Source of the DNA: Candidatus Cloacimonadota bacterium
GTDB lineage: Bacteria; Cloacimonadota; Cloacimonadia; Cloacimonadales; Cloacimonadaceae
Assembly (NCBI GenBank): GCA_020532355.1
Contig: JAJBBD010000273.1
Span: 1 to 39,854, forward strand
Direction of reading: 5' to 3'
Length of the DNA: 39,854 nucleotides
In this document: positions 36,975 through 39,854 of the stretch, one piece after another
Numbering within the stretch: position 1 is the first letter of the stretch
Layout: each line of letters begins with the position of its first letter
Made by a program: the position numbers and the translations under genes
The notes under the pieces: model-generated
Databases searched by the model: none
What the model saw: the letters and a program-made list of their open reading frames with translations, nothing else
What the model was told of the DNA's origin: nothing

Positions 36975-37003
36975 TTGACATTATTCGCCCATCTTGTTTA
37001 CTT
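36975..37003 (+). promoter_or_regulatory. Candidate promoter for the small membrane protein and hydrogenase-like genes
   Basis: A perfect TTGACA (36975-36980) precedes, by 17 bases, TTACTT (36998-37003), a weak -10. A start site near 37010 would leave GGAGG (37020-37024) in the leader, which fits a TTG start at 37030. TAAAAT at 37007 is a better -10 by sequence but lies too far from the -35. Confidence 0.4.
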
Positions 37004-37029
37004 GGGTAAAATATATTATGGAGGAAACC

Positions 37030-37305
37030 TTGGAACAAGAACAACGTGATTTTGCATATAGTAATCACTCGGCTCCAGTAATGAGCATCAGTCAGTGGGT
37101 CATTACTATGCTGGTGATGATTATCCCAATTGTGAACATAGTTATGCTAATAGTGTGGGCAACTAGTGCCTATGACAATCCCAACCGAAAGAATTGGGCC
37201 ATAGCTCAGCTAATCTTTATGGGAATCGCTGTTATCATTTGGGTGCTTTTCTTTAGTGCCATGATGGGTATGATGAGCGGAATGATTGGTTCTTTGGGAG
37301 CTTAA
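37030..37305 (+). CDS. Small two-span membrane protein
   Basis: A protein of 91 residues from the TTG at 37030, chosen because GGAGG lies five bases before it; an in-frame ATG at 37018 would add four residues but has no ribosome site. Two hydrophobic segments are clear: WVITMLVMIIPIVNIVMLIV and, after the polar AYDNPNRKNWA loop, LIFMGIAVIIWVLFFSAMM. The 'P.VN..MLI.WA......NP.+KN.A.A' pattern recurs in small uncharacterised membrane proteins of several phyla. It lies 28 bases before the hydrogenase-like operon, possibly co-transcribed. Function unknown. Confidence 0.75.
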   Translation: MEQEQRDFAYSNHSAPVMSISQWVITMLVMIIPIVNIVMLIVWATSAYDNPNRKNWAIAQLIFMGIAVIIWVLFFSAMMGMMSGMIGSLGA

Positions 37306-37333: not shown

Positions 37334-38767
37334 ATGATCGTTCGTTATTCCAAAGAAGATATTGAGCCTCAAAAGCTGGATATTTTTTTATCCGATATCC
37401 GCGAAATGCTTTTGTGTGGATTTATGCCACTTGCTTTTTTTGGCACAGATGAAAAATTGCTCTACTCTCTGATGGGGAAAAATGGAGATCTAAGGTTGCT
37501 CTGTTGTCAGTTTCCCAATCCCTTTCACTACCCTTCTTTAAGCGTTGAATTCCCATGCTTCAACACATTTGAACGTGAACTGCATCAACAATATGGCATT
37601 GTACCAATTAATCACCCTTGGTTAAAAAATGTGAGGCACAATCATCAAAGCTCACAAGAGATCGAAGACTATCCTTTCTTACGAAGTAAATCTAAACTTA
37701 TTCACGAAGTAGGAGTCGGTCCTGTGCACGCAGGAGTAATTGAACCCGGTCATTTTCGTTTTCTTATGCGAGGAGAGATTATTGAGCACTTAGAGATTCA
37801 ACTTGGATACCAATATCGTGGCATGTCTCAATTACTTTGCAAAGGTAACTTGGCTCATAAAATGTCCCTTGCTGAGTGTATCGCCGGTGATACTGTGATA
37901 GGTCATGGAACTGCCTATTGTCAGATAGTTGAAAGTCTTTCAAATACACAATCTCAAGCTCAAGATATCCGCATTTTACTTTTAGAGATGGAACGTGTTG
38001 CAATGCACCTTTCCACACTTAGCTCTTTGGCGGGAGATGTTGCCTATATAATGGGACAAAACATCTTTGCCGCTATACGAACCTTTGTGATCAATTCTAC
38101 TCTGAGCATCTGTGGAAGCCGTTTTGGTAAGCGAGCACTCTGCCCGGGAGGGGTTAATTACGGATTGAACTCAGACCAAATAACAAGGTTAAGCTCTGAG
38201 TTTGAAAAATATACAAGACATATTCAAAACACCTCCGAAGCCTTGTTTTCTACAACAAGCTTACTGTCCAGATTTGACGACACGGGAAAACTACACACAA
38301 ATGATGCTTTGCGATTTGGTTTCACGGGGATTAGCGCCAAAGCAAGCGGTGTGCCTGTTGATGCAAGAACAGATTATCCTGATTGGCAATATCCTGGCTT
38401 TCTTGTGCAAACTGAAATCAGTGGAGACGTCTATGCACGAGCTCACCTAAGATATTTGGAAATTATGCAATCCTTGCAAATTATTCTTGCTTTGCTACCA
38501 ACAATTAAACCTCACGCTCCATTGTTGGAACCACCCTCAAAACTTGAGCCCGGTAAGATTGCTATTTCCATTATTGAAAGTGCTCGTGGCAGAATAGTTC
38601 ACATAGCAAAAAGTAAAGATGAGTATAGCGCATTGTGGTATAAAGTAATAGATCCTTCTTTCGTAAACTGGCAGGCACTATCTTTATCGGTTGTCGGAGA
38701 GCAAATCTCAGATTTTCCGCTTTGCAATAAAAGCTTCGATTTGTCTTATTGTGGGAGTGATCTTTAG
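37334..38767 (+). CDS. Hydrogenase-4/complex I-like large subunit (fused NuoC-NuoD type), NiFe site absent
   Basis: A 477-residue peripheral subunit of a membrane-bound complex I/group-4 hydrogenase relative. Residues 1 to about 115 are a NuoC/30-kDa-like domain (FPCFNTFERELHQQYGI). Residues about 120-477 are the NuoD/HycE-like core (GVGPVHAGVIEPGHFRFLMR, then GYQYRGMSQLLCKG). The first NiFe-binding motif, normally RVCGIC, reads ECIAGDTVIGH here (A184 and T187 at the cysteine places), and the C-terminal DPCxxC reads DLSYCG (S471 and G474). So no NiFe centre is expected. This matches 'Ehr' hydrogenase-related complexes. No strong Shine-Dalgarno precedes the ATG. Confidence 0.85.
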   Translation: MIVRYSKEDIEPQKLDIFLSDIREMLLCGFMPLAFFGTDEKLLYSLMGKNGDLRLLCCQFPNPFHYPSLSVEFPCFNTFERELHQQYGIVPINHPWLKNVRHNHQSSQEIEDYPFLRSKSKLIHEVGVGPVHAGVIEPGHFRFLMRGEIIEHLEIQLGYQYRGMSQLLCKGNLAHKMSLAECIAGDTVIGHGTAYCQIVESLSNTQSQAQDIRILLLEMERVAMHLSTLSSLAGDVAYIMGQNIFAAIRTFVINSTLSICGSRFGKRALCPGGVNYGLNSDQITRLSSEFEKYTRHIQNTSEALFSTTSLLSRFDDTGKLHTNDALRFGFTGISAKASGVPVDARTDYPDWQYPGFLVQTEISGDVYARAHLRYLEIMQSLQIILALLPTIKPHAPLLEPPSKLEPGKIAISIIESARGRIVHIAKSKDEYSALWYKVIDPSFVNWQALSLSVVGEQISDFPLCNKSFDLSYCGSDL

Positions 38768-39493
38768 ATGCTTGATCTATTAAAATCCCGCTTAACCCAT
38801 GGTTATCAAGCAATAGCCAATCCCCTTAAGGCAGATATTCATCCAGCCTTCCCCGGCATGCCAATATTGGCTAAAAGTGCAGATCTGTATTGTTTAAACG
38901 ATATCTGTCCTGTTCATGCCTTTTCTGAGCAAGGATTGGATTTAGGTAAATGTACATTTTGCGGTTTGTGCAGCCGAGAACATCCCGAAATGATAAGCTT
39001 TAGCAATGATTTCAAAATAGCTGCGGATACCAGAGATAAACTAATTATTGCTCCTGGAGAGTTGGAGCTTTCGAAGATTGATTTCCGGTTACCGCGTAGA
39101 TTCCATCATTCTCTTGCTCTACGCAATGTTTCTGCGGGAGGGTGCAACGCATGTGAGATGGAACTATCTGCTTCGAACAATGTCAATTTTGATATAAGCC
39201 GTTACGGAGTTGAGATAGTTGCTTCCCCGCGACATGCAGACGCTCTAATTTTAACCGGACCAATCACAGCTAATATGACGGAAGCCTTAACGGAAACTTG
39301 GCAAGCCATAACCGATCCCAAATATCTTATTCTTTGTGGTACCTGTGCCATCAGTGGTGGATTGTTCGCAGAATCTGCTGCAATAGATAGAGCCTTTCTC
39401 AAACATTGGGAAGCATGCTTATATATACCTGGATGCCCAGCCCACCCTTTAAGCATAATCTACGCTATTACAACCATAATGGGGATTTCATGA
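38768..39493 (+). CDS. NuoB/hydrogenase small subunit with N-terminal ferredoxin domain
   Basis: A 241-residue fusion. Residues about 35-80 are a ferredoxin-like domain: C47-Pro plus C62, C65 and C68 can bind one 4Fe-4S cluster, while the partner position of a second cluster is H72. Residues about 118-241 are the NuoB/small-subunit domain with cluster ligands C126 and C129 (GGCNACEMEL), C193 (CGTCAISGG) and C223 (PGCPAHP); the CxxC spacing is hydrogenase-like, unlike the adjacent pair of complex I NuoB. It would pass electrons to the large subunit encoded just before it (TAG directly followed by ATG). Its stop overlaps the next gene. Confidence 0.86.
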   Translation: MLDLLKSRLTHGYQAIANPLKADIHPAFPGMPILAKSADLYCLNDICPVHAFSEQGLDLGKCTFCGLCSREHPEMISFSNDFKIAADTRDKLIIAPGELELSKIDFRLPRRFHHSLALRNVSAGGCNACEMELSASNNVNFDISRYGVEIVASPRHADALILTGPITANMTEALTETWQAITDPKYLILCGTCAISGGLFAESAAIDRAFLKHWEACLYIPGCPAHPLSIIYAITTIMGIS

Positions 39494-39854
39494 GTATTGG
39501 AATTCTGCTTCTGATCTTAACTATCATCCCGGCTTTATGGAAACGGTCTGGCTATTTTGTGATTCTGTGGGTTTTGGGTTCAGCTTTTTTAGCATTCGAG
39601 TATATGGAAGTTTTATATTCTCGTTCGTTGCAGGAGTTTATTATCACAATGTCTCCTCCAGTAGGGATTGTAAATATTGCGCTTAATAAGCTTTCTGCAT
39701 TCTTTGGCGTGATATTCTCTTTAGGGTTACCATTAGGAATGTTCTATGGGCATTATTATCTAAAAGAACATCCCACCAAAGATTTATGCTCTCATTTATT
39801 CTGGCTAGGATTAATGGGGATTAGTATGCACTGCGTATTGTGGATACGCCACAG
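39490..39854 (+). CDS. Proton-pumping antiporter-like subunit (NuoL/M/N or HyfB family), 3' truncated
   Basis: The first 121 codons of a membrane protein, starting at ATG in a four-base overlap with the small-subunit gene; it runs off the window. Hydrophobic spans at about residues 2-14, 20-35, 67-85 and 103-118 and the segment NIALNKLSAFFGVIFSLGLP resemble the N-terminus of Mrp-antiporter-like subunits of complex I and group-4 hydrogenases ('LD.LSAFF'). In this operon it would be the ion-translocating arm. Which paralogue it is cannot be decided from the fragment. Confidence 0.75.
   Translation, partial: MSIGILLLILTIIPALWKRSGYFVILWVLGSAFLAFEYMEVLYSRSLQEFIITMSPPVGIVNIALNKLSAFFGVIFSLGLPLGMFYGHYYLKEHPTKDLCSHLFWLGLMGISMHCVLWIRH

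Follow-up and report, generated by a model that had tools for sequence, protein, structure and literature searches.

A NiFe-less Ehr-type operon in a Cloacimonadota bacterium and repeated loss of N2 cluster ligands among its relatives

The 3′ end of the window, by which is meant the whole 39854-base contig analysed here, taken from a Cloacimonadota MAG of 2.69 Mb and 99.6% completeness (G000), is judged from its sequence to hold the 5′ end of an Ehr operon with six genes (L-S-A-B-C-D), and the large subunit encoded there has lost every ligand of the NiFe site. The best explanation for the Ehr complex, to which we assign a probability of about 0.45, would be that of an ion transporter with optional redox input; its function has been called unknown or never investigated in the portions consulted of two earlier papers (PMC10284858, PMC7894505). 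The features of the window that bear on this reading are:

36994..37305, plus strand: 103-aa ORF of small membrane type, next to L on its 5′ side and at most a candidate member of the complex (ORF list, L034/L076)
37334..38767, plus strand: EhrL-like large subunit (L), NuoC-NuoD fused, 477 aa (Pfam, phmmer, AF2, Foldseek)
37874..37894, plus strand: ECIAGDT at residues 181-187, once the first NiFe motif, with A184 and T187 in the ligand columns (phmmer alignment, column check)
38738..38755, plus strand: DLSYCG at residues 469-474, once the second NiFe motif, with S471 and G474 in the ligand columns (alignment, column check)
38768..39493, plus strand: EhrS-like small subunit (S), 241 aa, a fusion of a ferredoxin part with a NuoB-like one (ORF, Pfam, sequence match)
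38906..38971, plus strand: ligands of a single ferredoxin-type cluster, C47, C62, C65 and C68 (alignment and ligand rule)
39143..39154, plus strand: N2-type ligands C126 and C129, GCNACE (alignment)
39344..39346, plus strand: N2-type ligand C193 (alignment)
39434..39436, plus strand: N2-type ligand C223 (alignment)
39490..39854, plus strand: EhrA-like (NuoL-like) subunit (A), 5′ part only (start shared with the 636-aa A of L076; Proton_antipo_M in the L077 orthologue)

An earlier note on this DNA had described a compact gene order of a fused C-D subunit, a fused ferredoxin-small subunit and an antiporter subunit, and this was borne out, as L directly abuts S, both being real ORFs, and the ORF of A opens in an ATGA overlap with S and is truncated by the contig end. 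The sequence past position 39854, which the note wished to see, was read in relatives, where L-S is followed by A-B-C-D; Cloacimonadota relatives on long contigs share this order, the exception being L071 of genome G014 (A-B-C-D-L-S). Complete sets of all six genes were found in L034, L036, L068, L069, L074, L076 and L077, of which the window shows L, S and the start of A, and the assignment to an Ehr complex is made because relatives carry on in this order beyond the point at which the contig ends. In the relatives A and D match Proton_antipo_M and B matches NADHdh, while C has no Pfam match. The 103-aa ORF, for which a Pfam search gave no family above cut-off, is flanked by L and by a divergent EF-G-like gene, and a like ORF occupies the same place in L034 and L076.

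L matches Complex1_49kDa (4.8e-32) and Complex1_30kDa (5.4e-5) in Pfam. In phmmer alignments DRVCGIC of E. coli HycE is paired with ECIAGDT, and SLDPCYSC with SFDLSYCG, the four NiFe cysteine columns of HycE being A184, T187, S471 and G474 in L; the two cysteines that lie within these motifs, C182 and C473, pair with the Arg of RVCGIC and with a non-ligand column, respectively. The loss of all four NiFe ligands claimed in the earlier note is confirmed by this alignment and column check, and the intact CxxC pairs that it named as contrary evidence were looked for in the alignment and are absent. The same columns read A-[TS]-S-G in 16/16 Cloacimonadota Ehr rows as against C-C-C-C in HycE, HyfG and 3/3 Cloacimonadota Ech rows, and the ligands are gone in 58 of the 69 Ehr-like rows. 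L ends three residues past motif 2, at the place where hydrogenases bear a C-terminal tail that is cut off during maturation; no residues lie beyond the motif 2 region in L, as compared to HycE/HyfG, where DPCYSCTDR is followed by 32, and to Cloacimonadota Ech, where the number is 36-46, and the Ehr-like rows shown stop at the hydrogenase processing point without a tail. HypD had no match in G000 and is absent from 15/16 Ehr genomes, G014 being the exception with HypD and an extra, putatively Ech-like match; 7/7 genomes whose Ech was read with CGIC...DPCYCC motifs have HypD. A PF00346 search for a second NuoD-like protein in the genome of the window matched L alone. As HypD, such a second protein and the ligands are all missing, no NiFe centre would be expected in L, and a hidden NiFe enzyme was ruled out by the ligand columns and the absence of HypD.

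The AF2 model of L (pLDDT 82, pTM 0.83) has HycE (7z0s_E, TMq 0.79) as its top solved match in Foldseek, and by sequence L scores 118 bits with HycE, 97 with MBH, 72 with Nqo4 and 53 with MbsL. E. coli formate hydrogenlyase/hydrogenase 4 (HycE, HycG; 7z0s) is thus the top solved match, for both subunits by sequence and for L by fold, from which the present complex differs in lacking the NiFe ligands, the C-terminal tail and HypD. That L might be a decaying remnant without function, as the loss of the active-site ligands could suggest, is scarcely credible given that close Cloacimonadota pairs have a dN/dS of no more than about 0.1 and that L of the window retains the 41 positions with a conservation of 90% or higher across 58 NiFe-less rows. 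These positions, mostly common to hydrogenases, include E137, E218, E220, H225, D365, R369 and R373.

A phylogenetic tree of L, for which 59 of 74 rows were used (15, mostly near-duplicates, were dropped, and NuoCD was left out because NuoB tandem cysteines misalign), placed L apart from the hydrogenases used, as did a second tree that included NuoCD, from which L was likewise separate. Cloacimonadota copies form one clade, with L071 branching just outside and the Bacteroidales and Rhodoferax/Variovorax copies adjoining it; the position of L040, on a long branch, is unsure. The Ehr-type complex suggested in the earlier note is upheld at the level of sequence by an L without NiFe cysteines and by the subunit set in relatives; the annotated plasmid loci used carry the names hydrogenase 4 or NADH-quinone oxidoreductase, none being named EhrL. 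The Ehr of Geobacter (GSU0739-0745), as far as given in the consulted part of PMC7894505, has alike subunits (NuoL-like A, B, HyfE-like C, D, S and L) and an L that also lacks the NiFe cysteines; it is distinguished from the present complex by the order L-S-A-B-C-D found here and by the single-cluster ferredoxin part fused to S, in a comparison whose alignments hold no named EhrL.

A complex I-like quinone reductase, which would agree with the resemblance of fold and subunits to complex I, is very unlikely. The columns of the NuoD quinone-site His and Tyr, residues whose role we take as established, are I136 and G185 in L, and the clustering with true NuoD, including these residues, that had been named as evidence against an Ehr assignment was not seen. 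In addition, MqnA and MenD, representing the two routes searched, were each above cut-off in 0/59 genomes, so that no home-made quinone would be expected in the genome of the window, and the quinone reductase was rejected on the quinone-site residues together with the missing MqnA and MenD.

The small subunit (Oxidored_q6, 1.3e-24) retains all four N2-type cysteines by alignment, C126, C129, C193 and C223, in line with the earlier claim that its cluster ligands are kept. When cluster ligands were assigned by the ligand rule of 2[4Fe-4S] ferredoxins, those of one cluster were found to remain in the ferredoxin part of S, and those of the second to be missing, with HP in place of CP. In 16/16 Cloacimonadota rows cysteine is found at the columns of C47, C62, C65 and C68 as well as at the four of N2, and reduced ferredoxin may drive or gate the Cloacimonadota complex, which keeps two clusters.

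The membrane arm was read with the numbering and role of the channel residues of NuoL, NuoM and NuoH presumed to be those of complex I. NuoL-type E144, K229 and H338 are retained in 13/13 A rows, NuoH-type E157 and E220 in 13/13 B rows, and NuoM-type K234 and H348 in 15/15 D rows, with E144 in 14/15 (one row is gapped there); NuoM K265 is not retained in D rows, nor is it in HyfF. The channel residues of A, B and D are alike in N2-bearing and N2-less rows. NuoL/NuoM-type channel residues are common to Ehr and Mrp antiporters, although Ehr adds NuoH-, NuoB- and NuoCD-like subunits and the Mrp gene set is absent from the operon. The idea that Ehr substitutes for Rnf was discarded, as RnfC_N was above cut-off in 57/59 genomes, with and without Ehr.

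Among the relatives the N2 cluster ligands were lost repeatedly: on the 59-row L tree the N2 state requires at least seven changes as compared to a single change of the NiFe state, the lost ligands usually being replaced by D-x-D/E-N/D/S. In Bacteroidales S had a match in 89/393 sampled genomes, and the copies considered comprise 90 of 91 places (all but a partial second place in G766) together with Alistipes L039; N2 ligands are missing in 87/91 copies, 59 of them reading D-C-D-N, and intact in four, and the ferredoxin ligands are complete in 89/91, the remaining two copies being truncated. Microbacteriaceae yielded 16 copies in 15/398 genomes, 15 of which lack at least one N2 ligand and four all of them (one intact, nine C-C-C-S/N, two A/G-C-A-S, three D-D-D-S/A and one D-T-D-D). 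Matches were obtained in 202/400 Chloroflexota genomes, many of the weaker ones looking like ordinary NuoB, and in the best 29 read, that of L041 aside, N2 is intact in 19 and lost in 10; NiFe and N2 ligands occur in all four combinations in this phylum. N2 is intact in 25/25 Campylobacterota. In L196-L201, an L with four NiFe-type cysteines and no maturation tail is paired with an S that has lost its N2 ligands, and this four-cysteine site is possibly a zinc or structural site.

Positions 1 and 3 of the lost N2 site are acidic in most lineages, and a Cys codon cannot be turned into that of an acidic residue by a single-base change. The D-x-D/E-N/D/S site of most Bacteroidales and several Actinomycetota and Chloroflexota may be a site for cations or protons. 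Purifying selection acts on the N2-less forms, dN/dS being 0.05-0.18 in N2-less pairs as against 0.04-0.10 in N2-bearing Cloacimonadota; several further pairs, saturated at silent sites, yielded no value. The AF2 model of the N2-less S of L037 (pLDDT 58 overall, mostly 70-90 in the NuoB-like part) matched NuoB-type chains in Foldseek, which given the weak model is supportive only. Ehr is already known, while its repeated cofactor loss is apparently unreported, such a pattern of N2 or cofactor loss not having been found in print in literature searches on Ehr, NiFe-less relatives and N2 loss.

An Rfam scan of 50 operon loci, some of which share a genome and some of which hold cut operons, placed a fluoride riboswitch just 5′ of the operon in five loci and a c-di-AMP riboswitch directly 5′ of it in four, the latter all Chloroflexota Ehr-like:

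L087 6371-6441, strand of operon: fluoride riboswitch (Rfam)
L088 6377-6447, strand of operon: fluoride riboswitch (Rfam)
L158 13310-13380, strand of operon: fluoride riboswitch (Rfam)
L160 13032-13120, strand of operon: fluoride riboswitch (Rfam)
L204 6770-6853, strand of operon: fluoride riboswitch (Rfam)
L041 3813-3942: c-di-AMP riboswitch (Rfam)
L196 284-420: c-di-AMP riboswitch (Rfam)
L198 142-279: c-di-AMP riboswitch (Rfam)
L200 15581-15720: c-di-AMP riboswitch (Rfam)

The NiFe-less operons linked to fluoride belong to Betaproteobacteria, Microbacteriaceae and Chloroflexota; in L159 the fluoride riboswitch is on the opposite strand, and crcB, a chloride-channel-type gene and a pyrophosphatase are found in the neighbourhood of L088. 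At operon starts a c-di-AMP riboswitch was present at 3/8 N2-less regions versus 0/9 of a further, mostly N2-bearing set, and at 0/19 S-centred Chloroflexota loci. As c-di-AMP has a role in potassium and osmotic control, the links to fluoride and c-di-AMP point to ion transport as well. By Rfam no riboswitch was found in the window and five sister loci or in nine Bacteroidales loci, and the fluoride-linked and four-cysteine c-di-AMP-linked lineages sit elsewhere in the L tree than L of the window. ‘Formate-hydrogenlyase’ genes controlled by fluoride riboswitches are mentioned in a sentence of PMC8752731, the only source that the searched literature gave on the riboswitch side; among the loci read here, the operons of Burkholderia, Caballeronia, Microbacteriaceae and L204 belong to the NiFe-less Ehr kind and differ from the window in having the riboswitch and in lying in another branch, and a description of the fluoride-linked complexes as NiFe-less and partly N2-less was not found in that literature.

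Because selection maintains the complex in the absence of both NiFe and N2, its channels being intact, the family most likely moves ions, and its conserved job looks like ion transport, electron transfer being optional. The membrane arm, which retains charged residues typical of complex I/Mrp-type ion channels, would exchange H+ for another cation, and this ion movement would be the job upheld by selection; the soluble arm, having no NiFe, no quinone site and no recognised partner oxidoreductase, would no longer be a hydrogenase. In Cloacimonadota reduced ferredoxin would load the ferredoxin-type and N2-type clusters, and the loaded clusters would drive or gate the channel arm via the old coupling site, a terminal electron acceptor not being essential to the function of the family. 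We infer ion transport, the identity of the ion, ferredoxin as donor and gating alike. On a wider view, put forward tentatively and at somewhat less than even odds, Ehr-like complexes would be hydrogenase-derived ion transporters in which redox is optional and N2 has repeatedly turned into a carboxylate site, the window copy being a ferredoxin-gated intermediate; the resulting complex I-like machines would have few or no redox cofactors and in places be under fluoride or c-di-AMP control.

Counted against putting transport first is the retention of N2 and one ferredoxin cluster in all 16 Cloacimonadota copies, which favours an electron path there, and the reported rise of Geobacter Ehr with formate (PMC7894505, consulted in part) fits a redox role. 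A ferredoxin-oxidising, ion-pumping oxidoreductase, its acceptor reduced at or near N2 (for example sulfane sulfur, as in archaeal MBS), is accordingly a possibility of some weight, if one that we hold doubtful, and would also accommodate the intact channel residues. MBS itself is an example of a group-4 relative that lacks NiFe and acts as a reductase. The N2 ligands, however, are needed by any ferredoxin-to-acceptor route, and the neighbouring Bacteroidales have mostly lost them with the ferredoxin ligands retained, so that the ferredoxin cluster can be of importance where N2 is gone; the operon loci that were read showed no recognisable gene for a partner or an acceptor. Moreover, archaeal MBS/MBX (6u8y), though likewise a NiFe-less group-4 relative, is not the nearest solved relative of L, and MBS-type L proteins are a different family, to judge by the 319 bits of L029 against the 53 of L. 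The Cloacimonadota order has a further NiFe-less family, L026-L031, marked by a RICVPEPD motif; L029, its one tested member, is nearest to 6u8y. Transport with optional redox input and a true redox pump would overlap in practice. The coupling of ferredoxin oxidation to pumping with an unnamed acceptor, as the earlier note had it, is possible for the window copy and is weakened as the function of the family, because close relatives dropped N2 without decay and no partner oxidoreductase was recognised.

A formate-linked complex to which a formate dehydrogenase docks (FHL-like without H2) is improbable: such a link was proposed for Margulisbacteria Ehr (PMC6349859) and would suit the abundance of Geobacter Ehr on formate (PMC7894505), both as given in the parts consulted, but neither a formate dehydrogenase nor a HycB-type gene was recognised beside the Cloacimonadota operons read, the neighbours having been viewed as ORFs and not all by family. 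If the complex persists entire in relatives that lack the cluster obligatory for an electron route, ion transport may be the right question and the hunt for an acceptor the wrong one; were this true, Ehr-like complexes would be natural complex I relatives with channel work uncoupled from electron transfer, which bears on coupling in complex I.

Apparent fusions were seen in Actinomycetota operons, D-L being in one frame in L040 (15402-18413) and L154 (1338-4454) and S-A in L159 (6748-9642). Tandem FeFe-hydrogenase-like genes of ~670 and ~570 residues, at G000:C56:4097-6563 and in relatives, occur in many genomes of the family, often together with Ehr, in an association uncorrected for kinship.
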